This document shows positions 1 to 54,611 of a stretch of 64,000 nt of DNA, piece by piece. Under the pieces are notes generated by a model, which saw nothing but the letters and a program-made list of their open reading frames with translations, did not search any database and was not told the origin of the DNA. The DNA comes from Gammaproteobacteria bacterium. Lineage in GTDB: Bacteria; Pseudomonadota; Gammaproteobacteria; Pseudomonadales; Azotimanducaceae. The stretch spans positions 124,001 to 188,000 of the forward strand of contig VXNY01000029.1 of the NCBI GenBank assembly GCA_009840305.1, read 5' to 3'. Each line of letters opens with the position of its first letter. The stretch's first letter is position 1. The position numbers and the translations under genes are program-made.

Positions 1-1202
1 TGCCTACCACTCATGGACCATATTCCCTCGGTAACAGCGATCTCTCTGTATTCGACCGGAAGCACATCCAACTGTTCTAGCACTTCCATGGGTCTTCCAC
101 CGACCCAATATTTAATCACACGTTCTTCCAAACGTTTCCTAAGTCGATCGTCGGGGACGTTCGTCATCGCGTTCAGAGCGGCGAGTGGATCCTTGAAACA
201 CCATCTTCCAGCGAGTTCGAACAGAACCGTACGTGCAGTTTCGTGAAACAGTTGCAGTGCGTGTTCGAAGACGACACCAATTTCATCAGTATCCAATCGA
301 TCGGATAGAACTCGGCTAATCAGGCCAGTGCGAGTACGACGATCTTGAATCGAGTTAGCTAGTTCTGCAAACTTGGAGTATCCGTCCTTCTCAATTACTG
401 CCATCCCGATTTGCTGGAGCTGATATCGTTCGTCGTCGCCAACATTCTCAATGCTCAGCACTTCCTTCCATGCTTCGATCGGGTTATCGAGAGGTTTGTC
501 ATTCTCAATCTTTTCCAGCACGAAAGTCGAGGTGTAGGGATTCACTTGCAACCGTTCCGCTAATTGCAACTTCGCATCGTCAGAAAGCTCCCACGCGGCT
601 CGAAATATCTGTTCAATAACCGTTGATGTTCCCTCCCAACTGAGGCTAGGAACGTGTTGTTCACCAAAATTCAGCGCGTCATCAAGGTCAATCGCGGACC
701 ATTCACGATAAATCAGAGAAACGAAATGTTCATACAGACTTTTGGGAAATGACTCAGCGTAAGTGAGAGCTTGGATTGGATCAAGTGTGGCAAATTTGCG
801 AAAAATCTGAGTCTGCGTCGACTGCAACCGTTCAACACCTTGAAGATCGTGCGACTGGTCAAGTAAATCTATTAACATCGATACGTTTGCGTTGTTCAAC
901 AGATCGTCGAGCGCTAGGGAACTTTCAAAGTAAGTTTGCAACTTGAAAATCGATGCTAGATTGGACGACATCCTTGGTCCTTGATCAGATTCCCTGCTCT
1001 CAGTTTCGTCTACGGGTGCGACATGGTGAGGAGTATCTGACCCACTCTCGTCAGCGGTGGAATTCGTTTGCACACCTTCATCATGGAAGGGATTGAAGAG
1101 AATTAGAGCCCCAACGCACAGGACGACGGACAATCCTGTTCCAATCAGATAGGGTACAAGTTGAAAATGCAACCCAGAATTTCTACGGTCTTGATTAGTC
1201 AC
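1..1202 (-). CDS. Membrane-anchored helical-repeat protein, family member 1 (3' end cut by window edge)
   Basis: About 400 codons are visible and the reading frame is open to position 1, so the C-terminus lies outside the window. I chose the GTG at 1202 because an AGAGAG stretch sits about 8 nt upstream; an in-frame GTG at 1211 is possible and a stop closes the frame just above it. The protein starts with a short basic stretch (DRR), then a hydrophobic segment at about residues 15-36, then a polar acidic linker, then helical repeats with the family pattern of Trp/Ala followed by Asp-Pro and Ala (for example FATLDPIQAL, REWSAIDLDDAL). This predicts an N-in, C-out inner-membrane anchor with a periplasmic repeat domain. 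It is homologous to the gene just upstream (1294-3081), 91 nt away and in the same orientation. Function is unknown. Confidence 0.85.
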   Translation of the reverse strand, partial: MTNQDRRNSGLHFQLVPYLIGTGLSVVLCVGALILFNPFHDEGVQTNSTADESGSDTPHHVAPVDETESRESDQGPRMSSNLASIFKLQTYFESSLALDDLLNNANVSMLIDLLDQSHDLQGVERLQSTQTQIFRKFATLDPIQALTYAESFPKSLYEHFVSLIYREWSAIDLDDALNFGEQHVPSLSWEGTSTVIEQIFRAAWELSDDAKLQLAERLQVNPYTSTFVLEKIENDKPLDNPIEAWKEVLSIENVGDDERYQLQQIGMAVIEKDGYSKFAELANSIQDRRTRTGLISRVLSDRLDTDEIGVVFEHALQLFHETARTVLFELAGRWCFKDPLAALNAMTNVPDDRLRKRLEERVIKYWVGGRPMEVLEQLDVLPVEYREIAVTEGIWSMSGR

Positions 1203-1293
1203 AACACGCACTCTCTATCATGAAACAGAAACGTATGCGAACACTTAGAGCGCACTTTCTGAGGATCGTAGTGTGAGTTGAATAGCATTGAAC

Positions 1294-3081
1294 TTATTCG
1301 AAAGTTCGAATTTCTTCGAGTTGTTCATCGGTGAAGTATCGATGCGCATCTGCACCGAAGCCTGTGTCCCAAATCAGATATCTGGCAGCTTCTTGTTGAT
1401 ACTTGGGTTTAGGAAGGAGATCTAGAATTTCAGACAGTTCTACTCGATCTGTGTTATAGATTGCGTTGATTATTTCTCGGAAGTAGTCGTCCTGAAACGA
1501 CTCAGGTAATTCTGAGCCTAGTTCGATTGCGGCCGTTGAATCGTACTTATTCGCCAAAGCACGCCCTAGTTCAGAGTATGCTCTTTTCTTCGTGTCTTCG
1601 TGATCTCGGACATGAGGTAACATTTCGGTGGCTCGATGTACATCGGTCCGCGCTAGAATCCGAATGACTTCGTACTCCAATCCCAATTGACCTTCGGCAA
1701 TCGATTGATTCAATGCGGTGCTCAATGCTAAATCGGGATCCTTTTCCACGAGTGCCGGCATGACACTTTGCAATAACGCTGGATGTAGCGATTCTTCTTG
1801 CAAACCTATCCAATTGAGTGCTGCACGAGTATCTGAAGTAGCCCACTCTTCAACGAGAGCCCCACCCAGTTCTTCCACACCGTTCGGGACACTGTTCAGA
1901 AGGTCCACTGCATCTGCAGGGGACTTCCGAACAATTTGTTTCAAAGCGTTGCCCTGTATCCATTGAAGAGTAAAACCGGACAAATATTTGGACAGGTTTG
2001 GAAACGCCTCGTACGGCGCATTCTCAGCCCAGGCAAATCCGATGTTTTGCAGTAAGTTCTCTTTTATATACGTAGGACGAATATCAAATTCGGACACGGT
2101 GTCAAACGCTGTAGCTGGATCAGTTTCTGCCCACTCGCCCACGACTAGGAAAGCCGCGGCCTTGCGCGCATTTTCTTTAAACTCATTGACTAATTCGAAA
2201 GCTCGGCGTGGATCATCTTTAGCGATCGGTGTAAGAATTGGATCGAGAATGCCCATTGGAGAGTCCATCTCGGGTATCGAATCCATTGCTTCAAAAACGA
2301 CATCGAAACCTTCGCGGGCTACCCAAAGTTCGAGGACGGTGGCGAGGGAAGAAATTTGAAAATTATCAGGTTGGGCATCTTCCAGAAGAGCGTTCCAAGC
2401 AGATTCTGGATCGTTGAATGCACTATAGATTTGAACTTGCTCCAAGACGTCGCCACCAATGGATTCGTGTCCGAACTCAAGCGCGAGTTCCTGAATACGA
2501 TCTTCTGAAAAATCGTCGCGTATTCTTAGTATCGCGCCCAAAGCAGTGCGTTGGTCCGCGCTACCGAGAGTTTTCGAGTGTGCAATAGCTGTATCTACAT
2601 CGGCGGTTGCCCACTCAAGAAAGATTGCGTTAACAATCGGTGCGCGTCGATTCCATGCGATATCGAACGTGTGTTGCATCGCTGTCACGGGATTAATGAC
2701 AGCAAAACGACGGAAAATTTCGATTTGAGTACTTAGTCTTCGGTCATCGGGACGAATTGCCTTAGCTTGTTCGAGTAGTGAGATCACGTGTTGTTGATCC
2801 GCCGAAGACAGCAATGTACGAAGAGCTACCGCTCTTGTATAGTCATCGGTAAAGGTATCGAGGCTTTTAAGGTCTTTCGGACGAGGTGTCTTAGGTTCTG
2901 AACTTTCATCTGATTGAGATGGGAGTGCTGTCGGAGCAACGTTGTCTGGCGAATCTGCGGTGATTTGCTCATCGTCATTCGAGAGCAATCCGTAGGTCAA
3001 CAGACTGATTCCACACAACAATACTGGACCTAACAAGCCCACGCAAAACCAAGTAATGACGTGGAGGCGGCGACCTTCCAT
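1294..3081 (-). CDS. Membrane-anchored helical-repeat protein, family member 2
   Basis: 595 residues. A basic N-terminus (MEGRRLH) precedes one hydrophobic segment at about residues 8-32, then an acidic Ser/Pro-rich linker to about residue 75, then alpha-helical repeats to the C-terminus. Repeat units carry WA-x2-D/N-P-x2-A (WAETDPATAFDTV, WAENAPYEAF) and LP/VP turns. The C-terminal half holds the family block ALNWI, then EKDPDLAL, GLE, MLPHVRD and the terminal TDEQLEEI signature. The family is shared with the genes at 1, 7688, 16213, 18194, 50998 and 52794. It is followed by member 1 and probably co-transcribed with it. The repeats resemble TPR/HEAT-type solenoids, suggesting a protein-binding scaffold in the periplasm; that role is inference only. 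Confidence 0.9.
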   Translation of the reverse strand: MEGRRLHVITWFCVGLLGPVLLCGISLLTYGLLSNDDEQITADSPDNVAPTALPSQSDESSEPKTPRPKDLKSLDTFTDDYTRAVALRTLLSSADQQHVISLLEQAKAIRPDDRRLSTQIEIFRRFAVINPVTAMQHTFDIAWNRRAPIVNAIFLEWATADVDTAIAHSKTLGSADQRTALGAILRIRDDFSEDRIQELALEFGHESIGGDVLEQVQIYSAFNDPESAWNALLEDAQPDNFQISSLATVLELWVAREGFDVVFEAMDSIPEMDSPMGILDPILTPIAKDDPRRAFELVNEFKENARKAAAFLVVGEWAETDPATAFDTVSEFDIRPTYIKENLLQNIGFAWAENAPYEAFPNLSKYLSGFTLQWIQGNALKQIVRKSPADAVDLLNSVPNGVEELGGALVEEWATSDTRAALNWIGLQEESLHPALLQSVMPALVEKDPDLALSTALNQSIAEGQLGLEYEVIRILARTDVHRATEMLPHVRDHEDTKKRAYSELGRALANKYDSTAAIELGSELPESFQDDYFREIINAIYNTDRVELSEILDLLPKPKYQQEAARYLIWDTGFGADAHRYFTDEQLEEIRTFE

Positions 3082-3638
3082 ATGTGAGTACGGTTACTAC
3101 GGTTACAAATACCGTTTCTATTTTATAACAACATCGAAGCAAGTACGTTCGTAACAGAGCTGGAGGAGACTAATTGATGCTATCTGAGTTAATTATGGAT
3201 TGCTGGCTTAAATCTGGACGGACGGATCACTGGAAGTTGGAGAGTAACTATTACTACTCTACGAACTCCTGCATCTTCCCCTCGCACGTACAGATGGTAC
3301 AAGCTTGACTCTCCGAATACTCTTCTATTCACCAAAGTAACCAAAAGGTACGCTCAACAATCTCCTAGAGTATGTGCTTCGCTGAAACCCGATTCAAAGA
3401 AATAGAAAACACTCAATCAATCAAATCTTTTATTGGGTTCGACCAGACCGTATCTAGGATCCCAATTTTGTGTACTAGGACATGGCGACACATTTGATAT
3501 AGCACTTGAATGCGGGTTTAGAAAAGTACTTAGTCTTGGAAGACTGTCATCTGCTTGCGAGCGCGCACTGTTTTTGTGAAGAACCTTCCCATAGTGAGTT
3601 CTCGTTGTATCTAGCGAACTAGACATGGATATTGAGAT
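3082..3638. other. Intergenic region between divergent genes
   Basis: This 557-bp stretch separates the minus-strand repeat-protein pair from the plus-strand secreted protein, so it should hold two divergent promoters. I cannot place them with confidence. A short reading frame with a good Shine-Dalgarno sequence lies at 3177-3308 and is listed separately. A minus-strand frame at 3417-3626 (69 codons) has no recognisable domain, signal peptide or family resemblance and is not called. Confidence 0.4.
3177..3308 (+). CDS. Possible 43-residue small protein
   Basis: ATG at 3177 is preceded by CTGGAGGAG, a near-consensus Shine-Dalgarno sequence about 8 nt upstream. The frame encodes 43 residues (starting MLSELIMDCWLK) and ends in TGA at 3306. 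There is no membrane segment or recognisable domain. The only support is the ribosome-binding site and its position in an otherwise empty 557-bp gap, so it could be chance. Confidence 0.15.
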   Translation: MLSELIMDCWLKSGRTDHWKLESNYYYSTNSCIFPSHVQMVQA

Positions 3639-6023
3639 ATGAGATTTCGAATGACCCTAGTATTGACTCTAGTACTTTTGAGTTATGGATTGAGTGGAGC
3701 AGAGCCAAATATCTTGAAGGTGAGCGTCCACACTGAAAGTCTCGACGATAACGAGACTTGGGTAGGCGTGTTTGAAGAGGGCGTGACTCTCTCATCTGAT
3801 TCAATTTCTTGGAGTCGTGAGAGTACACCTGAATTCTTTGTTACCGTCTCAAGTGAACGCGACATCTCCTTAGTCTTTCTAAAGAAAAACTGCGTTCCCA
3901 TCGTTCAATCACTCACTTCAGAACTCTTGGAGGCAGGGCTTAATCTCAAATTCTCTAGAGGAGTCTCGATTTTTGGTGTGGTAACCATGGTATCTGGAGA
4001 AAGTCTACCTGAGGGTAGAGTATCAATCGATCGATTGCATGACGTTGAGTTCAACACACCCTATCCTGAGCTGTTGTCATGGGAAATCGAAGACGACGGT
4101 ACCTTCGAAATTCATGGATTGAGACCGAACTTCGAGTATCTGGTAACAGCTGACGCACCTGGCTTCATGCCGGCGATTGCCGAGACGACTCTCTCCACGG
4201 ACGAAACGCGCCGAGAAGTTAATTTTCAGCTAGCAGAGGCTACATTCATTACCGGTCACATTGTGGATCGCTTTGGAACCAAGATTCGCGTAGAGCTTGA
4301 TGCGGTAGTCTCTCCTTTGGAAAGCCAGACAACGGATGTACATACAGAGTTTGATGACGACGACGACTTTCGAATCGGTCCATTTGCCGAGGGTGCCGCC
4401 ATCGCGCTGACAGCACATGACGATCTTGATCGAAGGTCGAAAGTGGTTGAGGTACAAACTCCGACCGACAACGTAAAACTGTTAGTACTTCGCTGGATAC
4501 CGTTCTCTGGCACGGTGCAAAACGAGGAAACTGGCGAAGCCGTGGAGGAGTTTCAAATAATACGTCCAGATATCGAAGGTGGGAGTGGAATCAATATATC
4601 TGATCCAAACGGTCATTTTGAAATAGAGATCGACGAATTGGCCCCCGCAGTCTCGATTATCGCTACGGGTTTTTTATATTGGGAAAGCAGTCGTTACATG
4701 CAGCTCAAAGAACGCGATTCGTATGACTTAGGTATTGTTGAACTGAAACCAGCTCATACCATCCGCGGTCGAGTGTTGGACAGTACTTCGCGGTTGCCGA
4801 TTGAAGACGCTGTGTTAAGAAGAATCCAGCGTCAAGGAATAAATTTTTCCATTTGGATTTTCAACAATGTAATCACTACGACAGATTCTGATGGAGAGTT
4901 TGAACTGTCTGGCTTTTCCTCGGATGGGGACGAGCTTCGGGTAGGAGCAGACGGGTATCAGATAGCTTTCGTACCCTTAGATGACGTCGAGTCCTACTTA
5001 GAGATTGAATTGGAACCATCGAACGGGAGCATCTCTGGTCGCGTGGTGTCTGGTGATGGCACCCCGATCCATCCAGCGTGGGTGTCCATCGGTAGGCAGG
5101 GTTATCACAGAAACGAAGAAGACGGCACGTTTTCATTTATTTGGCTTAAGGGCACATATCAAGTTAGCGCGTCGGCCATTATCGGCGAATCTGACGTGTT
5201 AGAGGTGATAGTCGAGAACGAGCAGCATATTTCCGATATCGAGTTAGTGATCCACGAAAAGGGACGCGTCCATGGAACGGTGACAGGTCTGTTGGATGGG
5301 GAGAGCGCATCGGTAGGAGTCGCCGGTAGGTGGGGCGGCGTTCAGTCCGATGGAACGTACGAAGTTCACGGCGTTCCAATTGGAGAACATTTGGTCACAT
5401 GTGTAACAACTAAAGGCCGAAAGACATCTGCAACCGTAGAAATGAATGAGACGATGGAAGCTCAAATCGACTTTGTCTTTGAAGGAACGTCTTCAATCTC
5501 TGGGCGAGTTACATTAGCGGGTCAACCAGCTACTGAACTTGAAGTGCGGGCAACACCTATAGATGAGAATCACTCAGGTGGTCAGTCTGAAACTGTCGGA
5601 GACGGCACATATTTGATCGAGGGACTGGTTGAGGGTGACTATATGATCCATGTAATTTCGCGCGGTATTTCACAACAGGCGTTTGTATCGGGTGAGACAC
5701 AAGTCGATATTGATCTAGGATCTACCGAACTATCGGGGCGTATACAAGCTTCAGAGTCTGTGCGCGGCGTGCATGTATACCTGACAGGTTCTGGGGACGA
5801 AGGCAGATTCCAAATGCACACTACCGTCGATGAGAAGGGTTTCTATCGATTCTCGGGAATCGCAAGCGGAAGCTACGAAGTAACTGTATACCACGAGAAT
5901 TTCAAAACAGTAACACGTACTGTAGAAGTTGAATCCTCTGTGCAAGACGTCGATTTTCAGATTCAATCAAAAGATCAAAAAGACAAAGAAGTCTTGACCA
6001 AATTTGAGCAAAACGGTTTGTAA
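3639..6023 (+). CDS. Secreted protein of repeated carboxypeptidase-regulatory-like (beta-sandwich) modules
   Basis: 794 residues. An N-terminal signal peptide (MRFRMTLVLTLVLL, likely cleaved after LSGA) sends it to the periplasm or beyond. The rest is a string of about seven beta-sandwich modules of the CarboxypepD_reg / Cna-B-like type. Each is recognisable by a turn with D-G-x-F/Y, then a hydrophobic stretch, Gly, and often Y-x-V: EDDGTFEIHGL, DSDGEFELSGF, EEDGTFSFIWL, QSDGTYEVHGV, GDGTYLIEGL and EKGFYRFSGI. SGRV/RGRV motifs mark module starts. No peptidase catalytic domain, TonB-dependent barrel or C-terminal anchor is visible. Such arrays usually act as structural spacers or adhesion/carbohydrate-binding scaffolds; the role here is unknown. 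It is monocistronic, facing a minus-strand tRNA downstream. Confidence 0.8.
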   Translation: MRFRMTLVLTLVLLSYGLSGAEPNILKVSVHTESLDDNETWVGVFEEGVTLSSDSISWSRESTPEFFVTVSSERDISLVFLKKNCVPIVQSLTSELLEAGLNLKFSRGVSIFGVVTMVSGESLPEGRVSIDRLHDVEFNTPYPELLSWEIEDDGTFEIHGLRPNFEYLVTADAPGFMPAIAETTLSTDETRREVNFQLAEATFITGHIVDRFGTKIRVELDAVVSPLESQTTDVHTEFDDDDDFRIGPFAEGAAIALTAHDDLDRRSKVVEVQTPTDNVKLLVLRWIPFSGTVQNEETGEAVEEFQIIRPDIEGGSGINISDPNGHFEIEIDELAPAVSIIATGFLYWESSRYMQLKERDSYDLGIVELKPAHTIRGRVLDSTSRLPIEDAVLRRIQRQGINFSIWIFNNVITTTDSDGEFELSGFSSDGDELRVGADGYQIAFVPLDDVESYLEIELEPSNGSISGRVVSGDGTPIHPAWVSIGRQGYHRNEEDGTFSFIWLKGTYQVSASAIIGESDVLEVIVENEQHISDIELVIHEKGRVHGTVTGLLDGESASVGVAGRWGGVQSDGTYEVHGVPIGEHLVTCVTTKGRKTSATVEMNETMEAQIDFVFEGTSSISGRVTLAGQPATELEVRATPIDENHSGGQSETVGDGTYLIEGLVEGDYMIHVISRGISQQAFVSGETQVDIDLGSTELSGRIQASESVRGVHVYLTGSGDEGRFQMHTTVDEKGFYRFSGIASGSYEVTVYHENFKTVTRTVEVESSVQDVDFQIQSKDQKDKEVLTKFEQNGL

Positions 6024-7687: not shown

Positions 7688-9346
7688 ATGCGCGAGTTAT
7701 CAATGGGACGCTTTCGCGTGGTGGGCCTTATCGCACTTGGGCTGGTGGTTGGAGCGTCGATTTCAGCATTTGTTACGATTGCAATAACGAACGCTGTCAA
7801 TGAATCCACCGATGTGGTATATGAAACGAACAGTACTAAAACTGAGAATAACACGATTCAAAGTGAAATCTCAAGGCAAGAAGTAAACGAAAAACGTTCT
7901 AAGAAACCACAGAAAGACTCAGTCGTCTCCTCGTCTGTGGACGATCCCAGAGAGACATGGACCATATTGATCAACGACAATGTTGAAGATTTCGCACAGT
8001 TACGCACACTGTTAAGGGTAGCTGAAGAGTTGGTACAACAGGAAGGAATCAGAGTATTAGGTGGAATATATGATTCTGTCATGGATAGAAATGTCCGCGA
8101 CACCATCTTGAAATCTGTCGCCCAAAGTGCGGCGCTGGATGATCCCCAAAACGTCTTTCAAGACGCTATGTTGTTGCCGCGTGAGGTGCAAGACCTCCTA
8201 CTTCCGGAGATTGTAAAAGCATGGGCAGGAACGGATCCGTTGGTTGCTTTCGATGTCATTTCAAACCTTGACAAGAGCGGGTTGCGAGCGAGTTTACAAG
8301 AGACTCTGATCGGTGCATGGGCAGAGCACGACGCACAAGATATATTTAACAGCCTAGAACTCCTACCCCAGCGATTGCGGGCAAGAGCAGAAGAGTTGGC
8401 GATGCTCGCGGTTGCACGCTCTTCCCCGGCTGACGCAGTTCAGTTCTTAGAGAACTTGGACGACTCGAGTAAAAAACGCGAACTTGCAAAAACGATAGCC
8501 AAGAATTGGGCGAAGCGTGATGTTTACGGCGCACTAAACTGGGCAACCTCGTCTCAGTTAGCCGACGAACGAACTAAACAAGACATTCTCTCTATTGTTA
8601 TTAGGGAACTCGCCGTCAAAGATCCAGAGCTAGCGATGCAGACCGCTTTGAGCCACCCGCAGTACGAGTCTGCTTTTGGATTCAAAAGTGGGCTGGAGGA
8701 AATCGTCGTCGAACAAGTGGCTAAATATGACGTAGACAAAGCGATTGCAATGTTGTCGCAAGTACGAGCCGGCGATACAAGGATTGACGCGTACAAGTCT
8801 GTCGGTAGAGAACTGGTTTTAAACGCGGATTATGACCGCGCTCTCACACTCGGACAACAATTACCTGAAGAAGAAAGGAAGAAGTATTTGAACACCGTAC
8901 TGTCGTTGTGGGCTCAAGAAGACCCAGATTCCATGCTTGCATCAATCGATACTCTTATTGCAACACCGGAACTTAAGCAACAAGCTGCAGGAACCTTGTT
9001 AGCCCAAAATTTCCTTAATGGAGGCTCTGTTCTTTCTGAAGAGCAAGTCGAGCAACTGAGTGGTTATATGGTAGAAGGTGAACCCACAGTTGTGCGGATG
9101 GAGATGGGTGATCTCGACGATGACGGTTTTGTACAACGAGCAATCGAACAAGGTGGGAAGGTATTTTTCCCAACGCAGCGCACGATTACTTCATCTGAGA
9201 ATTTCGACCCAGAAGAAATGCAGAAAAACTTACAAAAGTCATTAGAAAATACTTTAGGGACGCTACTGAAAGATGTTAAGGCTGCGGGAGGCAATGTAGA
9301 GGTGAAGACGGAGGTGAAGAAAAACGATAAGGAAGATTCCGACTAA
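7688..9346 (+). CDS. Membrane-anchored helical-repeat protein, family member 3, with unique C-terminal extension
   Basis: 552 residues. A basic N-terminus (MGRFR) precedes a hydrophobic segment at about residues 10-32; Met6 at 7703 is an alternative start. A charged linker runs to about residue 85, then helical repeats follow: WAGTDPLVAF, WAEHDAQDIF, SSPADAVQFL, WAKRDVYGALNWA, VKDPELAMQTAL. The family's C-terminal signature is LSEEQVEQLSGYM at about residues 449-461. Unlike the others, about 90 residues follow it: an acidic patch (GDLDDDGF), then a likely amphipathic helix (PEEMQKNLQKSLENTL) and a Lys/Asp/Glu-rich tail. It stands alone rather than in a tandem pair, but a small membrane protein starts 57 nt downstream. 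Confidence 0.9.
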   Translation: MRELSMGRFRVVGLIALGLVVGASISAFVTIAITNAVNESTDVVYETNSTKTENNTIQSEISRQEVNEKRSKKPQKDSVVSSSVDDPRETWTILINDNVEDFAQLRTLLRVAEELVQQEGIRVLGGIYDSVMDRNVRDTILKSVAQSAALDDPQNVFQDAMLLPREVQDLLLPEIVKAWAGTDPLVAFDVISNLDKSGLRASLQETLIGAWAEHDAQDIFNSLELLPQRLRARAEELAMLAVARSSPADAVQFLENLDDSSKKRELAKTIAKNWAKRDVYGALNWATSSQLADERTKQDILSIVIRELAVKDPELAMQTALSHPQYESAFGFKSGLEEIVVEQVAKYDVDKAIAMLSQVRAGDTRIDAYKSVGRELVLNADYDRALTLGQQLPEEERKKYLNTVLSLWAQEDPDSMLASIDTLIATPELKQQAAGTLLAQNFLNGGSVLSEEQVEQLSGYMVEGEPTVVRMEMGDLDDDGFVQRAIEQGGKVFFPTQRTITSSENFDPEEMQKNLQKSLENTLGTLLKDVKAAGGNVEVKTEVKKNDKEDSD

Positions 9347-16103: not shown

Positions 16104-16220
16104 ATGAATTCAAAATTTCTTGTAGAAATCGATCTTGAAGTAATTGCGTGCAAGACTGAGTGTTTCCCACTAGAATTATCTATTACTTCTGATATCAACG
16201 TTCCAGAGTCCAATGAATAG
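16104..16220 (+). CDS. Possible 38-residue leader peptide overlapping the next gene
   Basis: ATG 16104 opens a 38-residue frame (starting MNSKFLVEIDLEVIACK) whose TAG at 16218 overlaps the ATG of the repeat-family gene at 16213 by 8 nt. Such an arrangement could couple translation. There is no strong Shine-Dalgarno sequence and no known family, so chance is quite possible. The rest of the gap 15936-16103 shows nothing recognisable. Confidence 0.15.
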   Translation: MNSKFLVEIDLEVIACKTECFPLELSITSDINVPESNE

Positions 16221-18084
16221 TCAAATTGTTCGCATCGTAACCCTTATCGCAGGAATTCTCATTGGTTTCGGTATCGCATGGGGAATTCTTTTTCTGTCAA
16301 AGGAACGGGAGAGCACTGAGCCAATTCGGACAAACAACTTAGAAGAGTCCTCTTCCAATGACGTAAACGTAGAAAAGGAGAGTACCAGCAATTCAAAGCT
16401 GAGTGAACCTCTCGTGATCCCAGACGATATCACCCAACTCGATATACCTCAAGGTCTGTTCGATCAAAAGCACGCAATTGCGAACTGGGTGGCGTCTCTG
16501 GACGAAGATCAGATTCTGAACTGGCTAGAACAATCCACACAGCCAGAATGGAACGTATCAACGACGTTCCGTACGGAATTTCAAACCGCATTAGTCCAAA
16601 AACTGTCACAGAGTTCGCCGGAAAAAGCGCTCAAATTCGCGGCAGCGAGAATCGAACCTGTCCGAGCAAATTTAGGTTCAATTGTTATCTCTGAATGGGC
16701 GACAAGCGATCTAGACAGAGCGATCAATTACGTGAAAACTACGACATCGTTAACTTTGCTCGACAGGTCTTGGGTTTTGCACAGTATTCTGCAATCGCAA
16801 GTTGGTTTGACGTTGGAGCAACAAAAAGAAATTGCACGGGAGTTGGGAGATGAGGCATACGCTATTACGTTTTATTTTCAATCACTCCTCACTACCAAAA
16901 TTGACGACCCCGAGAAACTTTGGTATGAAATCGTGGAGCTTGCAGAATCGGAAAACCGTCAACACACTGACACCCTCGAAGCTGTGGCTCAGACGTGGAT
17001 AGAGCGAGATGGATTACAGATTCTTGATGAAGTTACAGCATCAATTACAGATAAACGCCTTCTTCAATCTGTAACTTTTGGAGTGTTGATGGATCACGCG
17101 GATGTCGAGGAACAAACTGAGGAAGCATTTGAATACACTTTCAAGCTTCACGACGACTTTCCGTGGAAAGGCTTCATTCTGCGCTCGATAATTAGCCAGT
17201 GGGCAAGATATGATCACATGGCTGTGTTGAATCGAGCGGAGACACTCCCGCCAAGTAGTTACCGACAAGACATGATTGAGGACGGCTATAGGGAAAAGGC
17301 GAGGATTGAACCGAAGCAAACACTTGAGAATCTAGATTCCTTACCGCCGGGGATTCTAGAGTCAATCAGTCAAACTGCAATACGAGAACTAACTAAAAAG
17401 TCACCAACCGACGCGGTAAGCGTAGTGCTAAGGATCGAAGACAAAAAATTACAGCAAGAGTTAGCTACAAGTCTCGTCTATACTTGGAGAAATGAAGATC
17501 TTGACGCAACGAAGAATTGGATACTGAGTCTACCTACCGATGAACCACTTCGTGATGCCTTGCTCGCGCCGCTCGCGAATTCTTTGACTGAGACTGATCC
17601 TCGGCTCGCCTTTGAGATAGCGCTCCAGCAATCTTTACAACAAAATGGAGAAAACTTGAGAGGACATGAGGCGAGCGTTGTTCGGCGGATTGCGCAAACC
17701 GATATCGACCTTGCAATCGAACTATTGCCAAACGTGCGAGAAGAATCGAGATTTTCAACTTACAGAGGGGTCACTGATACGTTGATTGGGAACGGTGATA
17801 GCAAAAAGGCGATAGGACTTGTTAACGATTTGACAACAGAAGAACAGAGTCAATTTGTTCGGGAATCACTTTGGAGTTGGATCCAAAAAGACGCTGAAGG
17901 ATTGAAGAATAGTATCGGTGACCTAGAACAGGAGGAGACACGCATGTTTTTCGTCCAGGCGATGATTGGATTGAATGACGAAACTAAAGCATACGACGCC
18001 AAGGATCTTCAAATCTTAGAGGAATACTTACCCGAGAGCGTCAGGGAAGCGATGAAACAATTCGAAGCGGAGTCCTCACAATAA
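16213..18084 (+). CDS. Membrane-anchored helical-repeat protein, family member 4
   Basis: 623 residues from ATG 16213. A hydrophobic segment spans about residues 5-26 (VRIVTLIAGILIGFGIAWGI), followed by KERE, an acidic Ser/Asn-rich linker, then helical repeats to the end. Units include SSPEKALKFA, WATSDLDRAINYV, WARYDHMAVLNRA, KSPTDAVSVV, WRNEDLDATKNWI and TETDPRLAFEIAL. The C-terminal signature is degenerate (DLQILEEYLPESV). One motif, ARELGDEAYA, matches LALEFGHESIG in member 2 and ALDLGSEQHA in member 5, so these three may form a subgroup. It is the first gene of a tandem pair with member 5. Confidence 0.9.
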   Translation: MNSQIVRIVTLIAGILIGFGIAWGILFLSKERESTEPIRTNNLEESSSNDVNVEKESTSNSKLSEPLVIPDDITQLDIPQGLFDQKHAIANWVASLDEDQILNWLEQSTQPEWNVSTTFRTEFQTALVQKLSQSSPEKALKFAAARIEPVRANLGSIVISEWATSDLDRAINYVKTTTSLTLLDRSWVLHSILQSQVGLTLEQQKEIARELGDEAYAITFYFQSLLTTKIDDPEKLWYEIVELAESENRQHTDTLEAVAQTWIERDGLQILDEVTASITDKRLLQSVTFGVLMDHADVEEQTEEAFEYTFKLHDDFPWKGFILRSIISQWARYDHMAVLNRAETLPPSSYRQDMIEDGYREKARIEPKQTLENLDSLPPGILESISQTAIRELTKKSPTDAVSVVLRIEDKKLQQELATSLVYTWRNEDLDATKNWILSLPTDEPLRDALLAPLANSLTETDPRLAFEIALQQSLQQNGENLRGHEASVVRRIAQTDIDLAIELLPNVREESRFSTYRGVTDTLIGNGDSKKAIGLVNDLTTEEQSQFVRESLWSWIQKDAEGLKNSIGDLEQEETRMFFVQAMIGLNDETKAYDAKDLQILEEYLPESVREAMKQFEAESSQ

Positions 18085-18193: not shown

Positions 18194-20128
18194 ATGAAAC
18201 GACCACCAATTATCGTTCAACTCCTGTTTCTTTCAGGAATCCTCTTAGGAGTGAGTGGTGCTTTTATGTTCGAGATCTTTACGTCGTCGAACAGTTCCGC
18301 TGAAGTTTCGTCGTTGAAAAACGGAAATTCACAACCGACGGAGATCGAACATTCGACCGGACTGGAATCTCAAGGAGACGCCAGTGTCCATGTGGAAAGA
18401 TTCGAGGAAATTTTGGCTGCATCCCATGACAAGAACTCGGTTGAACTCAAAGCGACTGTCCTTTCGTTTGTGGCAGACGCACCTCAAAGTAGTGTGGGTG
18501 CGCTTTTAGATCTGCTAACAGAAGAGTCTTTCGTACACTCGACACGCGTAAAGCAAGAGCTTCAGAGGGCACTCTTGGAAAAATTAGCTACAACTCATCC
18601 TCGAGAAGCATTAGGTTTCGCAGTGGAAAATGACGTCCCGCAACAACTGGGGACAATGTCATCCGTAGCTTCAACGTCGCTGTCTCTCAGATTCGCGTTG
18701 CCGCCTTCCGCTCCAGCTCCAGCTTCATTCGTAACAACGGTCTTCAATGTTTGGTCGTCTCGCGATCAAGAAGAAGCTATTGCGCGTGCTCACGAATTAG
18801 ATGAGCCAAATCGGAAGTTAGCACTCGCCGGCATTCTTAATGCTTACGCTGGAAGATCGTTTGAAGAGTTACGAAAAATCGCTTTAGACCTAGGAAGCGA
18901 ACAACACGCGACAGATGCATATCTAGCTTCTTTTAATACTGAACACTTGGCAGACCCTAGGACTGCTTGGACGAACGTGAATCCGCTTGCCAGTACTCGC
19001 AATCTCCCTCATGAATGGGTGTTGAAAAACGTTGCGTTACAGTGGTATGAGCGAGAAGGGGTAAGCATTGTGGACGAAATACAAGAGTCTGAAGCTTCGT
19101 CCAGTGTGAAATCAGAAACCACTAGACTTGTACTCTGGCACGCGGTAGAAGACACCCCGGAAGATGCCTTTAGACTAGCGCTCAAGATTCCTATTGATAT
19201 GCGCTTGGGTATGCCGTATGTTCACGATGTTGTTAGAGCGTGGGCTAACATTGACCCGCAAGCAGCGTATAACATTTTGGACGAAGTCGACGATCCTTTC
19301 TTGCTTGACATATTACCCAGAGCTGTAGTCAATACCTGGGCTTGGAATGATCCAAATTACGTTTTGGACAACATTAAGGACTTTCCACCCGATCTCCAGG
19401 ACACGGCAACGGCAAGCGCAATCGGATCAATCGCTGTGAATGCGCCGCTTGAAGGGGCTGAACGTGCTCTTGAAATTTCGAATCCAAACGCTCGATCTCG
19501 AGCACTTAGTCATGTGATCAGTATCTGGATACAGCAAGACGTAGACTCAGCTGTGAATTGGGTCGAGTCTGCAGAAACAACTGCTCGACAACGGTTCGAG
19601 TTAGTTGATAAGCTAACAAGTTGGCTTGTGTCGGACGATCCAATCCGAGCGTTTGATATCGCTCGAAAAGAGAGTGCATTAGGTTGGAATGACACGGGAC
19701 TAGAGTCAGATATAGTCCGTTCTATTGCTCAATACGAAGGAGTTGAGCTCGCCCTTGAAATACTCCCTCGGGTGCGTGAAGGAAAGACTCGAGCAGTAGC
19801 TTCAGCACATGTTGCCGAGACGATGATCAATAACGGAGACACTACTCGAGCACTAACCATTGGCCTCGATTTGCCGCCGTCAGAACAGGAAGTGTACTTT
19901 CCCAGCATTGCGGACACGTGGGTGGATGTAGACCCGGGTAGCTTGCTCGAAGCGATCGAGAAAATTCCTGCTACAGAGCTTCGTTCCAAAGTTGCTCTAA
20001 AACTATTCGAAGAGCAGCGAGTAAATAATTACACCGTAGCGCCAGTTGACAAGTTAACCTCGTCACAGGTTGAAATTCTTAAGCAGCATTTAACCGATGA
20101 GGATCGAGCTACGATAGACAAACAGTAA
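18194..20128 (+). CDS. Membrane-anchored helical-repeat protein, family member 5
   Basis: About 644 residues from ATG 18194 (MKRPPIIVQLL). Alternatives in frame are TTG 18185, which is close behind an AGAGGGGG sequence, and GTG 18155. A basic start and a hydrophobic segment (about residues 5-27) precede a Ser/Glu-rich linker and then the repeats: TTHPREALGFA, WSSRDQEEAIARA, WANIDPQAAYNIL, WAWNDPNYVLDNI, QQDVDSAVNWV, SDDPIRAFDIA. The C-terminal block has GLE, EILPRVREG, then LTSSQVEILKQHL. A low-complexity Pro/Ala stretch (PPSAPAPASF) near residue 180 is not shared with the others. It lies 109 nt behind member 4 and is likely co-transcribed. Confidence 0.9.
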   Translation: MKRPPIIVQLLFLSGILLGVSGAFMFEIFTSSNSSAEVSSLKNGNSQPTEIEHSTGLESQGDASVHVERFEEILAASHDKNSVELKATVLSFVADAPQSSVGALLDLLTEESFVHSTRVKQELQRALLEKLATTHPREALGFAVENDVPQQLGTMSSVASTSLSLRFALPPSAPAPASFVTTVFNVWSSRDQEEAIARAHELDEPNRKLALAGILNAYAGRSFEELRKIALDLGSEQHATDAYLASFNTEHLADPRTAWTNVNPLASTRNLPHEWVLKNVALQWYEREGVSIVDEIQESEASSSVKSETTRLVLWHAVEDTPEDAFRLALKIPIDMRLGMPYVHDVVRAWANIDPQAAYNILDEVDDPFLLDILPRAVVNTWAWNDPNYVLDNIKDFPPDLQDTATASAIGSIAVNAPLEGAERALEISNPNARSRALSHVISIWIQQDVDSAVNWVESAETTARQRFELVDKLTSWLVSDDPIRAFDIARKESALGWNDTGLESDIVRSIAQYEGVELALEILPRVREGKTRAVASAHVAETMINNGDTTRALTIGLDLPPSEQEVYFPSIADTWVDVDPGSLLEAIEKIPATELRSKVALKLFEEQRVNNYTVAPVDKLTSSQVEILKQHLTDEDRATIDKQ

Positions 20129-22582: not shown

Positions 22583-23467
22583 ATGATGGAGAGAATATTG
22601 TTGAAAAATAATCGACGGAAACGAACTCTTTCCGTGGTTTTAGTTGGCTCTTTGATACTGTTCGGAGTCTTGGTGATTGCGAGAACCATAGAGCGCGAAA
22701 TCATTGATGAAGAGGGAAACCGATATGTGGGCGATACTGTTGACGGGCAAATTCATGGAGAAGGACGATTTGAATGGGCTGACGGTTCGTCCTATGAAGG
22801 AGATTTCAAGAACGGAGAGGTACACGGGGAAGGAACGATGCTGTACGTTGACGGTTCGAAGTATTCAGGGACGTTCAATCGAGGCGAACGGCATGGCTAC
22901 GGTGTGCTAACGCTCAACGATGGCGATGTGTATGTAGGTACTTTCGTGTCGGACAAGATTTCAGGGGAGGGTGAATGGACATCGGAGTCAAAAGGGGAAT
23001 CGTACCGAGGATTGTGGAAAGACGGAAAACGACACGGTACGGGCGTACTGACGTGGGAGGACGGATCGCAATATACGGGATTTTTTTTGAATAATCAAAG
23101 ATTTGGATTTGGTGAACAAGTCAACACCGACGGGCAAAAGTATCTGGGCCACTTTAAATCCAATTTGAAACATGGCGATGGAATATTGGAAATAGATCAG
23201 CAAACGAAACGCTTTCAGTCGTGGGAACAGGGTCAGTTAATGGTCGATGAAGAAATAAAGGAAGTCGAAAACTGTGCATTAACAGTAGAAGGGAGTCCCT
23301 GGATGTTTGTTGGTGATGAGTGCGTAGATGGTCTCGCGCACGGGACTGGTCGCGCCGTCGCGCTTGATGGATCTGCGTATGTCAATCTCGGAACTTTCGT
23401 GCTCGGTAGCCTTATCAAGGGCGTAGTTCTACCGATGACATTGCCAGAAGAGTTTGATGATTCTTGA
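22583..23467 (+). CDS. MORN-repeat protein with N-terminal membrane anchor
   Basis: 294 residues. A basic start (KNNRRKR) precedes a hydrophobic segment at about residues 15-33. About seven MORN repeats follow, each near 23 residues with the pattern Y-x-G-x-F/W...G-x-G-x2-x-W/L-x-D-G: RFEWADGSSYEGDF, YVDGSKYSGTF, LNDGDVYVGTF, WEDGSQYTGFF. The last about 70 residues are a divergent domain with two cysteines. MORN repeats often bind lipids or proteins and act as membrane-associated scaffolds. The 3' end overlaps the kinase-like gene by 11 nt, so the two are translationally coupled and probably functionally linked. Confidence 0.85.
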   Translation: MMERILLKNNRRKRTLSVVLVGSLILFGVLVIARTIEREIIDEEGNRYVGDTVDGQIHGEGRFEWADGSSYEGDFKNGEVHGEGTMLYVDGSKYSGTFNRGERHGYGVLTLNDGDVYVGTFVSDKISGEGEWTSESKGESYRGLWKDGKRHGTGVLTWEDGSQYTGFFLNNQRFGFGEQVNTDGQKYLGHFKSNLKHGDGILEIDQQTKRFQSWEQGQLMVDEEIKEVENCALTVEGSPWMFVGDECVDGLAHGTGRAVALDGSAYVNLGTFVLGSLIKGVVLPMTLPEEFDDS

Positions 23468-50264: not shown

Positions 50265-50635
50265 TGAAACGTCACCAAACGATCCGATTCGAACATAGCT
50301 TCGGTCAGCTGGCCCAGACCCACGATCTTAAAGCTATCGCTTGAATCTGTTCGCTGTTGATTGTGGATTCCTCGTCGTTCGCAAGCACCTACACAAACAC
50401 AGAGTTGAATGCTCTGTTGTGATGCGAATTCAATCCACTCCCTTTGAATGTTTCGTTCGTCGGAAGGGACGTTGTGGGATTTGTTCGCTATCAATACTGC
50501 ATCTTTATAGAAAAAGACACGGTAGAGTCTGTGCTGGTTACGAACAGTGGCCTTAGCAAACTCCAGCGCCTGTTCGCACGCGTTTGAACTGAAAGGACTA
50601 CCGTGAACGAGTAGACTGATTGTTGTTGTGTTCAA
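50261..50635 (-). CDS. tusD: Sulfur relay protein TusD (DsrE family)
   Basis: 124 residues. TusD takes sulfur from TusA on its conserved Cys, visible as IQLCVCVGACERRGI near residue 80, as in E. coli TusD. The fold's other marks are VHGSPFSSNACEQALEFAKAT and HRLYRVFFYKDAVLIAN. It is the first gene of the tusDCB-tusE operon. Just upstream lies tRNA-Ser(UGA) on the same strand. Confidence 0.92.
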   Translation of the reverse strand: MNTTTISLLVHGSPFSSNACEQALEFAKATVRNQHRLYRVFFYKDAVLIANKSHNVPSDERNIQREWIEFASQQSIQLCVCVGACERRGIHNQQRTDSSDSFKIVGLGQLTEAMFESDRLVTFQ

Positions 50636-50671
50636 TTTTCTGGTCGTGTGATTAGGTGTACGATTCGAAAG

Positions 50672-50760
50672 TGGCGGAGGGGCGGGGATTCGAACCCCGG
50701 GAGGTAGTTAACCTCGCTGGTTTTCAAAACCAGTGCTTTCGTCCACTCAGCCACCCCTCC
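50672..50760 (-). tRNA. tRNA-Ser(UGA)
   Basis: An 89-nt class II tRNA with acceptor stem GGAGGGG/CCCCTCC, G discriminator and encoded CCA. The anticodon stem CTGGT/ACCAG encloses TTTGAAA-type loop with anticodon TGA. A long variable arm (GAGGTTAACTACCTC) and T arm CGGGG-TTCGAAT-CCCCG are clear. The tus genes follow in the same direction and may be co-transcribed. Confidence 0.95.
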
Positions 50761-50935
50761 AATGCGATGGCTTTAGTAAAAACGTAGTTTCAGCAAACAA
50801 ATTTTAAGTAGAGTTTGGAAGTCATTCGAAGCTATCTAGGGTGTATACGAATATCTCGAAAACCCTTCTCATAACATAAGCATCTTATACGTATATATCA
50901 GACGTGAAACGAACTTTAAGGTTCAATACTTATGG

Positions 50936-50965
50936 TTGAGACCAAAAACTCGACAAAACGATAAA
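50936..50965 (+). promoter_or_regulatory. Possible sigma-70 promoter for the repeat-family pair
   Basis: TTGAGA (50936-50941) and GATAAA (50960-50965) are separated by 18 bp and lie about 32 bp before the ATG at 50998. This fits a vegetative promoter. The gap 50761-50997 shows nothing else. Confidence 0.3.
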
Positions 50966-50997
50966 ATCAATTTGATCAGAATTTGATAGGTGAACCG

Positions 50998-52797
50998 ATG
51001 AATAAATCCCTTCAATTCCTCGGCAGTATGATCATCGGGGTGTTCCTCGCGATGGCAGTCTTTTTCTTGGTGTATAGCTTCTGGCCTACCAAATCACAGG
51101 ATATTGCTGTTGTTACGCCTGACGACAACGGTCCAATTCACGAGCCGATGTCAACTGCTGAAATTAGCCGAATCTACGATTCCATTGATTCTCCCGAAAC
51201 GCAAAGTCCTACTTCTCTAATCGTCCAACTATTGCCTAGTGTCGAACGAATGGACCAACAATCATTGGAAGAACTGTTTGAACACATCTCGTCGAAGAGC
51301 ACGAATCGACAACATCAGACCTTAGAACAAATAGTCATCTATCGTCTTGCAGAACTCGAACCGCAGATCGCCTTCGAGACGGTCAGTAGCCTCGATTATT
51401 TCAAACAGGAACAACTAATTCCCACCTTGATGTCACGATGGGCTATAGAGAGTTTAGAAGATGCGTTGTCTGCTGTTTCAACACTAAAGGGAGATTTAAG
51501 GATGTTAGCACTAACTAGTGCGCTTTCAGAATTAAACAATGCAGCCCACCAACAAGCACTTGAGTTCGCGAAAGGTTTAGCCATTGAGCCAAAAGTCAAA
51601 CAAGCGTTGAGTGAAGTGAGAATTCGAAGAGCGATGCACAACCCACGGGAAGCATTCGAAATCACCTTGACAGATGATGTTCCGGACGAAGATCAGCTGG
51701 ATCTGTTTGATGAAGTTACGGAACTTTGGCTCAACACAGAGGGTACGGACGCTTTCCCACGGTTATTAGAAATTCTTCAAACCAGTCATGACCCTGGAGG
51801 TATGAGCAATTGGCGGTATTTTTACAACCTCGTGGATCATTTAGCCAAATTTGACCCACCTTTCATGTGGGAATTGGTGGAGAATGAATATCAGGATCTG
51901 CGTGACTCACTACGAGTGTCCATTCTTGGTCGTTGGGTGCAAATTGACGTCGATGGAGCACAAGCTGCTCTTCAGAAATTGGATCAGGATGAGTATGTCG
52001 AAGATCTATATCGAGACATGATTTGGCATGGGATGTCGGATGATCCTATACATCTAATAAGGCAGGTAGACAGATTTCCTCAAGGTCATCGTGGATATTT
52101 GTTGTCCCAAGCTATTTTTAGACTTGCACTGGATGGCGATATCGACGCTGCTTTTGATGTTCTACAACAGTTGGAAGGGTTAGAGGTGAACACGAACAGT
52201 GCCATAGAAATGCTAGTGATGGGATGGAATAATCATGACCTGTTGGCAGCCTTGGATTGGGTGCTAGAAAACACCGAAAAGGGTAGTGACCTTCAACGTT
52301 CACTTCTCAGATCTAGCATTCGAGACTTGGCAGAGACTGATCCCAAACGAGCCATCGCCTTAGCGATTGAATACGACGATCCTCAGAATGTAGGTACTTG
52401 GAGTTCCCTACCGATTGTTGTCATTGATAGGGTCGCTCTCAAAGGTGACTTTGAGACCGCACGCGACCTGTTGACGCAACTTGGCGAACCCCAAACCCAC
52501 TTAGGACACTCTGAAATAGGCGAACAATTGGTTCGAAATAACCGAATTGATGAAGCCATCGATCTAGGAAGAGAATTACCTAACGCTCTACAGGTTCAAT
52601 ACTTTGACAACATAGCATATCAATGGGTTTTGGTCGATGCCGACGATTTCTTAGATAGATTCTCAACTTTCTCTAACGAGCTTGTACAATCGGCAATGGC
52701 GAATCAGGCATTGGGTAGGAATAATCTCAGAAAGTTGCTGTCGGTTGAAGAAATCGCATACTTGGAACAATTCTCGACGACGGAGGAAGAAGAATGA
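50998..52797 (+). CDS. Membrane-anchored helical-repeat protein, family member 6
   Basis: 599 residues from ATG 50998, with AGGTGA about 6 nt upstream; a TTG at 50983 would add five residues. One hydrophobic segment spans about residues 5-27 (LQFLGSMIIGVFLAMAVFFLVYSF), then an acidic linker, then helical repeats: SRWAIESLEDALSAV, HNPREAFEITL, WNNHDLLAALDWV and AETDPKRAIALAI. The C-terminal block has LGHSEIGEQLVRNNRIDEAIDLGRELP and the signature SVEEIAYLEQF, ending in an acidic tail. Its stop (TGA) overlaps the ATG of member 7 by 4 nt, so the two are translationally coupled and may form a hetero-oligomer (inference). Confidence 0.9.
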   Translation: MNKSLQFLGSMIIGVFLAMAVFFLVYSFWPTKSQDIAVVTPDDNGPIHEPMSTAEISRIYDSIDSPETQSPTSLIVQLLPSVERMDQQSLEELFEHISSKSTNRQHQTLEQIVIYRLAELEPQIAFETVSSLDYFKQEQLIPTLMSRWAIESLEDALSAVSTLKGDLRMLALTSALSELNNAAHQQALEFAKGLAIEPKVKQALSEVRIRRAMHNPREAFEITLTDDVPDEDQLDLFDEVTELWLNTEGTDAFPRLLEILQTSHDPGGMSNWRYFYNLVDHLAKFDPPFMWELVENEYQDLRDSLRVSILGRWVQIDVDGAQAALQKLDQDEYVEDLYRDMIWHGMSDDPIHLIRQVDRFPQGHRGYLLSQAIFRLALDGDIDAAFDVLQQLEGLEVNTNSAIEMLVMGWNNHDLLAALDWVLENTEKGSDLQRSLLRSSIRDLAETDPKRAIALAIEYDDPQNVGTWSSLPIVVIDRVALKGDFETARDLLTQLGEPQTHLGHSEIGEQLVRNNRIDEAIDLGRELPNALQVQYFDNIAYQWVLVDADDFLDRFSTFSNELVQSAMANQALGRNNLRKLLSVEEIAYLEQFSTTEEEE

Positions 52798-54611
52798 GTC
52801 AGCATGGTAAAGACCCAAACTTCAATGCGCAAATTACATTACGCAAACAGCTTGTCATGGTCGGTATCGTTTTGGGAATTGCCATTGGCTCCCTAGGTAG
52901 TCTTGCTTTTGTAATTTGGTCGGATGGTGATAGATCTAAAAGTACTCTCTCCGACTCTATTGCTGCGAATCAAGAACCGAATGCAACCCGAGAAACAACG
53001 GTTCAGAACGAACTCTCCCCCGAGCTATCGAAACTATCTAAAGTGGACTCCATGATTGAGATTGTGTCGGAATTCGATCGATTGAGCACTGAACAGATGG
53101 CTGCACTAGCCCAACAAACTACAAATCTCGAGCCGCGATCGAAACGTAGTACTATTCAGACCCTCCTCATTGGCGAATTATCAAGAAGGGATCCAAAACA
53201 TGCTTTGGAACAGGTGTGGAAGATGCCAAGATCTCAATGGACGGAGCTCGTCCCCGTCGTGTTCAGTGAGTGGTCACTCATCAATATTGAAGATTCCTTC
53301 GCAACGAGTATGGAACTTCACGCAGCACTACGCGAAACCGCAATTCGTTCGCTGTTGAATACACGAACCGAATTATCGAATAATCGTTGGTTGACATTAG
53401 CAGCTGAACACGATTTTGAAGAATCAATACTCACTTTGCTTCGAGAACGTGAAGCGATCGCACTTCTAGATTCGCCTTTGGATGCGTTTCAATTAGTTAT
53501 TCAGGACGACGTTGATGACCAGTTGCAACGTGATTTAATTCAGAAGATTGCGAGGACAATGGTTCAGCAGAACGGGTATGAGAGTTTCGATCCTTTGATC
53601 GAATACAGTATTTGGTGGTTCAGCGACCTCTTGTTGGAGGAAGCGGAATCAAACCCGATAGAATTCTTTTCCGTGATTAAATCGTTACCGACAGAGTCAC
53701 GAAATTCGGTTATCTATCCGCTGGTGAAGGCTTGGGTTCCTTTAGATCCCAGCACTGCTTACGAATCGATATCAAGTCTTGAAGAGTTCAAAGATAAGTT
53801 CTACTATCACAACATTTTTAGGATATGGGCCGAGGTTGATCTTGAGGGATTGTTCACGCGTGTAGAGTCCTTTCCTCGAAGTGAACGAGCATGGGCAGCT
53901 TATTCAGCACTTCTTGAATTAGTCAAAAAATCGCCAGAAGAAGCGTTGAATAGAACGTTTGATTATGAGTCGATAGTAGGGGTCGATGTCTTGGACTTAC
54001 AAGAAAGTTTGATCAGTGAATGGGCTGCCAGCGATCCAAAAGCAGCGGTGAATTGGGTTACAGCAAACACCACTGAGGACACGTGGGATCAAGCATGGTT
54101 GCTCTGGATGGGATTACGGGAGTTCGTCAAGATCGATCCAGAAGCGGCGTTAGAGTTTGCTTTGTCTCAAGCGCCGGAGTCCGTTTATGTGGAGCGGGGG
54201 TTCGCCGATCGTGTAATAGACGATGTAGTGGACGGGGGTGAATTGGAATTAGCTATGGCTGCATTGGATCGACTTCCGGAAAATGCGCGGATAGATTCCT
54301 TTACTTCGGTAGGAACAGCACTCGCGCTCGAACATCGATGGCAAGAGGTGGTTGAACTGATAGAAGGTTTTTCTGACGAAGAGCAGGTTAGGTATTTCAA
54401 CACCGTGACTTATTTCGCGATGAGAGATGATCTCTTTAAGTTACTCGAGACGGTACCAAAATTGCCTTCAGAAAAGGCTCGGCGACTGGTAGCTCAAGGA
54501 ATGTTAAGGAATCATGAACGATACGGTGGAAGCTTAACTACAGATCAAGTCAATTACCTGCAGCAATTTGTTGACCAAAACGACGATTCTAACGAGAATC
54601 ATTTGAACTAG
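52794..54611 (+). CDS. Membrane-anchored helical-repeat protein, family member 7
   Basis: 605 residues from ATG 52794 (ATGA overlap with member 6). A hydrophobic segment lies at about residues 20-42 (VMVGIVLGIAIGSLGSLAFVIW), after a longer polar N-terminus than in other members. A Thr/Asn-rich linker precedes the repeats: SRRDPKHALEQV, SEWSLINIEDSF, WVPLDPSTAYESI, KSPEEALNRTF, WAASDPKAAVNWV and KIDPEAALEFAL. The C-terminal signature LTTDQVNYLQQF is followed by a short acidic tail. Members 6 and 7 are the most tightly linked pair in the window. Confidence 0.9.
   Translation: MSQHGKDPNFNAQITLRKQLVMVGIVLGIAIGSLGSLAFVIWSDGDRSKSTLSDSIAANQEPNATRETTVQNELSPELSKLSKVDSMIEIVSEFDRLSTEQMAALAQQTTNLEPRSKRSTIQTLLIGELSRRDPKHALEQVWKMPRSQWTELVPVVFSEWSLINIEDSFATSMELHAALRETAIRSLLNTRTELSNNRWLTLAAEHDFEESILTLLREREAIALLDSPLDAFQLVIQDDVDDQLQRDLIQKIARTMVQQNGYESFDPLIEYSIWWFSDLLLEEAESNPIEFFSVIKSLPTESRNSVIYPLVKAWVPLDPSTAYESISSLEEFKDKFYYHNIFRIWAEVDLEGLFTRVESFPRSERAWAAYSALLELVKKSPEEALNRTFDYESIVGVDVLDLQESLISEWAASDPKAAVNWVTANTTEDTWDQAWLLWMGLREFVKIDPEAALEFALSQAPESVYVERGFADRVIDDVVDGGELELAMAALDRLPENARIDSFTSVGTALALEHRWQEVVELIEGFSDEEQVRYFNTVTYFAMRDDLFKLLETVPKLPSEKARRLVAQGMLRNHERYGGSLTTDQVNYLQQFVDQNDDSNENHLN

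Follow-up and report, generated by a model that had tools for sequence, protein, structure and literature searches.

Why should a short stretch of a bacterial chromosome carry seven genes for related, membrane-anchored repeat proteins that belong to no characterised family? The question is posed by 64,000 nucleotides of a gammaproteobacterial genome of the Azotimanducaceae (assembly GCA_009840305.1, contig VXNY01000029.1, positions 124,001 to 188,000; henceforth the window), in which a preliminary description had picked out such genes at positions 1, 1294, 7688, 16213, 18194, 50998 and 52794. The family comprises 75 genes in this genome, most of them arranged as tandem pairs of an upstream (A) and a downstream (B) member, and this pair organisation, absent from the earlier description, is its most informative feature. 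The family, its size, its fold and the pairing are solid. With a probability of roughly 0.5, we read its members as inner-membrane-tethered, cysteine-poor periplasmic alpha-solenoids that would mostly act as co-encoded heteromeric clamps, each pair with its own client or client class; client binding and client identity are the parts of this reading that we infer.

All seven open reading frames (ORFs) are real and share one plan, the gene at position 1 lying on the minus strand and leaving the window at its left edge, and they align as one family with 21–27% identity to P0002. A profile built from them gave 77 matches in the same genome (G000) with a best E-value of 2e-231, so that chance is not an issue; after translation of the matched regions these resolve to 75 genes. 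The preliminary description had proposed counting paralogs in the whole genome. Together the genes fill 135,474 bases of the 2,621,006-base assembly, about 5.2%. A 2.6 Mb genome thus devotes about 5% of its DNA to one unnamed protein family, and in the relative G008 the share would be roughly 7–8%, by our own arithmetic, if each of 114 matches is a gene. Family genes have a median length of 610 amino acids (aa), and 70 of the 75 exceed 510 aa; the five shorter ones measure 203, 430, 463, 465 and 508 aa, and the 203-aa fragment is omitted from the 74-row family alignment. Median pairwise identity is 21%, and of the 2701 pairs that were compared only 11 lie above 50%, so the majority of the copies are old. 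The description had called seven paralogs in 64 kb extraordinary, and the window does hold about four times the genome average of 1.8 family genes per 64 kb, but ten lie in a single run elsewhere (C34:270-289 kb). Its proposed terminal signature, [ST]-x-EQV-x-L, is kept loosely: LSEEQVEQL, LTSSQVEIL and LTTDQVNYL fit, and FTDEQLEEI, LSVEEIAYL and YDAKDLQIL deviate. Nor is its A[LV]NW block invariant, as two members have ALDW or TKNW. A typed degenerate DNA pattern gave no match, which bears little on the family.

The four loci named earlier hide an order: three of them carry A-B pairs (1294+1, 16213+18194 and 50998+52794), the gene at 7688 is unpaired, and the left locus extends beyond the window, where a second pair follows. 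Genome-wide, 66 of the 75 genes form 33 tandem, co-oriented pairs separated by gaps of -8 to 265 bases, in a pair list that, like the start codons, was assigned by us. Upstream and downstream genes form mirrored clades, and the A and B distance matrices correlate at 0.941 (the best of 2000 permutations reached 0.216); in 22 of 33 cases the nearest pair is the same for A and for B. Because block duplication alone gives mirrored trees, independent signs of pair unity were sought in related genomes. The compared regions hold 102 family ORFs in G008 and 80 in G013, of which 98 and 72, those over 150 aa, entered reciprocal searches; reciprocal best hits were obtained for 56 of the 75 genes with G008 and 42 with G013. 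Wherever both members of a pair have such hits they stay adjacent (24/24 in G008, 18/18 in G013). Synonymous divergence (dS) from G008 spans 0.05 to 2.2 across the pairs of G000, and A and B of a pair agree closely in it (Spearman 0.94, 24/24 pairs; 0.88 with G013, 13 of 18 pairs). The absolute log ratio of dS, |ln dS ratio|, has a median of 0.11 within pairs (n=14) and of 0.79 between adjacent genes of neighbouring pairs (n=10; p 0.004). Since adjacent genes of neighbouring pairs are less alike in dS than pair-mates, linkage alone does not explain the agreement. Hidden paralogy could account for some of the high dS values, not for the low ones.

The family tree suggests a history of repeated pairing. 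Placing A and B labels on it requires 8 changes; branches with good support force at least 6 of these, and a single clade of all A genes is rejected by the approximately unbiased (AU) test (p 1e-36), a result that long branches or conversion between pair-mates could distort. One couple, C28:44022/41957, consists of sister genes. As the A genes are not one clade, couples seem to have arisen several times, as would be expected if a self-pairing ancestor kept splitting into two specialised partners. Many cognate A-B couples in one cell amount to a natural experiment on how specific partners are to each other, how heteromers evolve and how protein complexes pass from one species to another.

Whether the partners touch was approached by structure prediction on the pair at L050, whose two frames are split by a single stop codon and were read through as one chain of 1182 residues. 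The accompanying alignment consisted of 28 in-frame A-then-B pairs from G000, G008 and G013, chosen from 56 in-frame neighbours (out-of-frame pairs are unusable); it was limited to read-through pairs because rows of single proteins mostly landed on the wrong half, and all 28 rows cover both halves. The fused model has a mean predicted local distance difference test score (pLDDT) of 82.1, falling below 50 in the joint at residues 577-655, and a predicted template modelling score (pTM) of 0.79. If the two halves, which make up about 0.48 and 0.45 of the chain, had no defined position relative to each other, a pTM near 0.5 would be expected by our estimate; the value obtained points to a confident placement of A against B. 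A and B likely form a complex.

The fold of a single member was predicted for the A protein of pair 2, encoded at 16213, with the 74-row alignment. The AlphaFold model (pLDDT 92.5) consists of a helix at residues 4-34, a low-confidence stretch at 34-63 and then helices to the end, interrupted by one small hairpin. The single membrane helix, polar acidic linker and solenoid of the earlier description are supported, the fold in this one predicted member. Foldseek returned generic solenoids from the PDB, with TM-scores of at most 0.38 among the 50 matches listed. The periplasmic placement suggested earlier also gains support from the sequences. Ahead of the membrane helix, 67 of the 75 members carry a net positive charge, 8 are neutral and none is negative; the 20 residues that follow the helix have a net negative charge in 55 members, a positive one in 6 and none in 14. 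In C13:59301, C13:61347, C34:261433, C34:418440 and C27:506831, among others, a signal-peptide-like start, read by eye, replaces the plain anchor. Past residue 80, cysteine accounts for 31 of 39,158 residues across the family, against 118 of 12,355 in 28 other window proteins; of the 19 members at 12 loci in other genomes, 18 lack cysteine past residue 70 and one has a single cysteine there. Charge bias, signal-peptide-like variants and cysteine scarcity together indicate a family of membrane-tethered solenoids that face the periplasm.

The earlier statement that no characterised family covers these proteins stands for Pfam, NCBIfam, PADLOC and PHROGs. None of the seven window members is claimed by a model of the first two, and a Pfam scan of 74 members gave none at an E-value of 1e-5 or better for any model listed, the nearest being TPR_19 (4/74 members, best E 1.6e-4), HEAT_2 (2/74, 1.9e-4) and PPR (1/74, 0.0071). 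With TPR, PPR and HEAT proteins the family shares an all-helical superhelical repeat fold, as predicted for one member, but its sequences give no clear match to their Pfam models. Helical-hairpin repeats are common to those solenoids and to this family, which differs from them in its long-short helix pairs with WA-x2-DP junctions. A search of PDB sequences with the family profile found mainly designed and natural PPR proteins (designed PPR E 4e-23, helped by their repeats) and, weakly, the LapB structure 9up5 (E 0.0016) and a SusD-like chain (E 0.027). PADLOC gave nothing convincing for 74 members, five of its families being touched by 1-3 members each (best E 1.8e-4, OloA), and six members had no match in PHROGs. 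Single-query searches returned no relative from viral contigs (query A3) and none from plasmids and phages (query P0004). No description of the family was found in the open-licence literature searched with limited terms.

Three known systems come near to this architecture. YfgM of Escherichia coli is a TPR-like solenoid; its partner PpiD is not related to it, each of the two has a single gene, and both bind the Sec translocon. PMC9643414 describes the two as tethered periplasmic proteins acting as a heterodimer. This makes them the closest working analogue that we can propose, and an N-terminal membrane helix with a C-terminal periplasmic domain is predicted for the present family as well; here, however, the partners are paralogues in tens of pairs, and no member matches the Pfam model for YfgM or PpiD. 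LapB/YciM likewise joins a membrane helix to a TPR solenoid but faces the cytoplasm and has a cysteine-rich metal site, unlike this nearly cysteine-free family. The SusC/SusD systems of Bacteroidota comprise tens of paired genes per genome, one partner having a TPR-like fold; the present pairs lack a barrel partner and draw both members from the same family. Reef-associated bacteria of sponges and corals are described, in PMC9868349 and PMC8163846, as rich in solenoid repeat proteins counted by Pfam hits, with a limit of 1e-5 given in the former. In contrast to such eukaryotic-like repeat proteins, no member of the present family reaches that limit, and therefore Pfam-based surveys of repeat proteins would not see it. 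If the hosts are animals, the counts in those two reports would have missed the family.

The description had also named a lineage-specific expansion as a sign that would support it, and copy number is indeed high in part of one genus and sparse beyond it. Among 18 genomes of the genus, 10 have at least 38 matches at E 1e-20 and 8 have 0-6, counts from about 74 upward being lower bounds. With all candidates scored at 1e-10, matches, which in relatives include fragments, number 114 in G008, 97 in G013 and 77 in G007. At the same threshold, 58 of 206 genomes and 18 of 37 genera of the wider taxonomic family have a match, as do 3 of 368 other genomes of the class, one of which (L151) shows the same plan; sampling beyond the taxonomic family covered this class alone. 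Nine loci read in other genera hold one member each, unpaired. In a tree that outgroup rows did not root cleanly, the 17 rows contributed by low-copy members of the genus group together (support 0.94), separate from the expanded set. Our reading of these sequences is that a single gene probably grew into a large family within one genus. A large run at L117 and L118 (G008:C1:99814-122121) and at L137 and L138 (G013:C43) is related to the single gene C34:412976 of G000, that is, this group is expanded in G008 and G013. At G013 loci L133-L147 many family frames are split, as pseudogenes or through assembly errors.

The working model that we favour, that of heteromeric clamps, can be laid out as follows. 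The upstream A and downstream B proteins, paralogues of each other, would be made together and anchored by their N-terminal helices, or exported via a cleaved signal where the plain anchor has been lost. Their solenoids would dock with each other, giving a clamp with two arms at the outer face of the inner membrane. About 33 such pairs, each holding its own client or client class, most likely exported or envelope proteins, would make up a repertoire of clamps; that there are so many couples suggests a separate client class for each. In this proposal every A is best matched to its own B, and for that reason duplication, retention and exchange between related species would act on whole pairs.

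Several observations weigh against the clamp model. Nine of the 75 genes lie outside the 33 pairs, and together with the single members at the nine other-genus loci they show that pairing is not needed for every member. Plain block duplication would also mirror the A and B trees; among the 10 dS comparisons across pair borders, 4 give values (0.02-0.29) no larger than those of pair-mates; and the A genes are not monophyletic. The fused pTM comes from a single cognate pair, judged by pTM and pLDDT. Among the genes that flank the pairs, none is conserved in a way that would point to a client.

How selection and exchange act on the genes bears on what else they might be. Between window positions 51000 and 54599, over pair 50998/52794, 300-base windows are 91-99% identical to G008, most strongly from 52200 on, against a flank average of 86% (range 74-91%); with G013 this stretch shares 72-89% and with G005 76-90% identity, on the whole below its flanks. 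The simplest reading of this pattern is that pair 3 was exchanged by homologous recombination between relatives. The ratio of nonsynonymous to synonymous substitution (dN/dS) has a median of 0.25 and a maximum of 0.50 with G008 (55 of 56 reciprocal hits after a length filter) and a median of 0.25 with G013 (35 of 42, likewise filtered), against 0.106 for 13 non-family window genes, namely those of the 28 that have an orthologue in three compared G008 regions. Change between orthologues is highest in the disordered linker and least in the helix at 463-471; variation is slightly greater in the long helices than in the short (12 repeats, p 0.007), a weak signal from one model. A hypervariable binding face was looked for along the solenoid between orthologues and none was seen. 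By these comparisons the family is constrained and fairly fast-changing, not hypervariable, and the variable binding partners of the earlier description are unsupported as stated, with changes spread along the solenoid, a peak in the linker and no visible hypervariable ridge.

A different account of the same data would have the pairs face a fast-changing partner, such as an animal host, neighbouring cells or phage, with diversity kept by allele exchange between species, as at a polymorphic envelope locus. The apparent exchange of pair 3 as a cassette, 91-99% identical to G008 between 86% flanks and less similar to G013 and G005, favours this account, and the elevated dN/dS, the range of 0 to 114 copies within one genus and the group that is expanded in G008 and G013 but single in G000 point the same way. 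Most copies, however, are old and shared, 56 of 75 having reciprocal best hits in the compared G008 regions; selection is purifying, with no hypervariable surface seen; and the PADLOC touches are weak, with no relative among viral contigs, plasmids or phages in the single-query searches. We therefore hold this account as possible but doubtful. Somewhat less probable again, in our view, is a composite that combines recognition with the clamp: 20 to 50 heteromeric clamps per cell, each with its own specificity and traded as pairs by recombination, would set which envelope clients, partners or invaders are recognised, and heteromers would have emerged more than once from an ancestor that was encoded by one gene, probably paired with itself and persists singly in related genera.

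Copy number might also reflect dosage and not specificity, if all pairs built one large envelope lattice or sheath. A common architecture, tens of copies and an acidic, cysteine-poor composition would suit such a scaffold, yet members differ far more strongly, at a median identity of 21%, than subunits of a repeated lattice do, and relatives in the same genus make do with 0-6 copies, so that we regard it as quite unlikely. That the expansion is neutral, a product of duplication-prone tandem genes without strong function, is hardly credible: tandem runs and the many split frames in G013 speak for it, but dN/dS stays at a median of 0.25 and a maximum of 0.50 over 55 orthologues, 70 of 75 copies exceed 510 aa, and pairs are kept across species.

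Coordinates of family members and of their parts in the window, in nucleotides from its first base.
Feature	Position	Strand	Remarks
B-type member, pair 1	1..1211	-	first 403 of 631 aa; continues past the left edge of the window; full gene G000:C34:123319-125214
A-type member, pair 1 (595 aa)	1294..3081	-	directly upstream of the pair 1 B gene
Unpaired member (552 aa)	7688..9346	+	divergent charged C-terminal tail; orthologue in G008
A-type member, pair 2 (623 aa)	16213..18084	+	first AlphaFold target
Predicted membrane helix of pair 2 A protein, residues 4-34	16222..16314	+	AlphaFold; family charge bias
Linker of pair 2 A protein, residues 35-71	16315..16425	+	largely low-confidence; within the fastest-changing stretch of the family
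Predicted alpha-solenoid of pair 2 A protein, residues 72-623	16426..18081	+	AlphaFold
B-type member, pair 2 (644 aa)	18194..20128	+	
A-type member, pair 3 (599 aa)	50998..52797	+	4-base overlap with the next gene
B-type member, pair 3 (605 aa)	52794..54611	+	
Stretch of raised identity to G008, over pair 3	51000..54599	+	300-base windows

Genes near family members were considered as possible clients or partners. Exported AhpC/TSA-thioredoxin proteins lie beside four family clusters, but 28 matches occur genome-wide, fragments included, so the adjacency was taken, by judgement, as little above chance and the candidate was set aside. Such proteins with a long N-terminal part occur at L048:7255-9129, L057:10011-11501, L042:5294-7000 and L055:2-1366. 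CarboxypepD_reg proteins were dropped as partners and kept as a lead. Five genes score above the cut-off. Three stand no more than about 0.6 kb away from a member of the family (window 3639, C28:1293 and C11:131579, the last also with a TonB plug), and C33:90728 is separated from a pair by about 4 kb; neither the protein at window 3639 nor the one on C28 has a homologue in the compared G008 and G013 family regions. The window protein (3639-6023, plus strand) is an exported-looking chain of 794 aa with CarboxypepD_reg repeats in 5 stretches, located between two family loci, and a relative lies directly upstream of the pair at C28:3199.

An ORF from one cluster of 8 similar, PhyH-like ORFs stands next to the family gene at 7 of the 16 loci that come from low-copy genomes or other genera, the 7 being spread over three genera (L097, L098, L100, L101, L102, L105 and L106); all five of the ORFs that were scanned are PhyH. 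No family region of G000, G008 or G013 falls in this cluster, which therefore does not explain the expanded pairs, and a PhyH dioxygenase was rejected as their partner; the adjacency may point to the ancestral setting of the family.

Two further groups of genes were noted. In the window, a MORN-repeat protein stands beside a protein kinase with TPR-like repeats (22583-25670, plus strand); the MORN gene also occurs in four compared regions of relatives and the kinase in two. Genes for AAA_14/DUF4143-type ATPases recur near family members at L052, L053, L054 and L098 (5 ORFs at 4 loci, three of them scanned).

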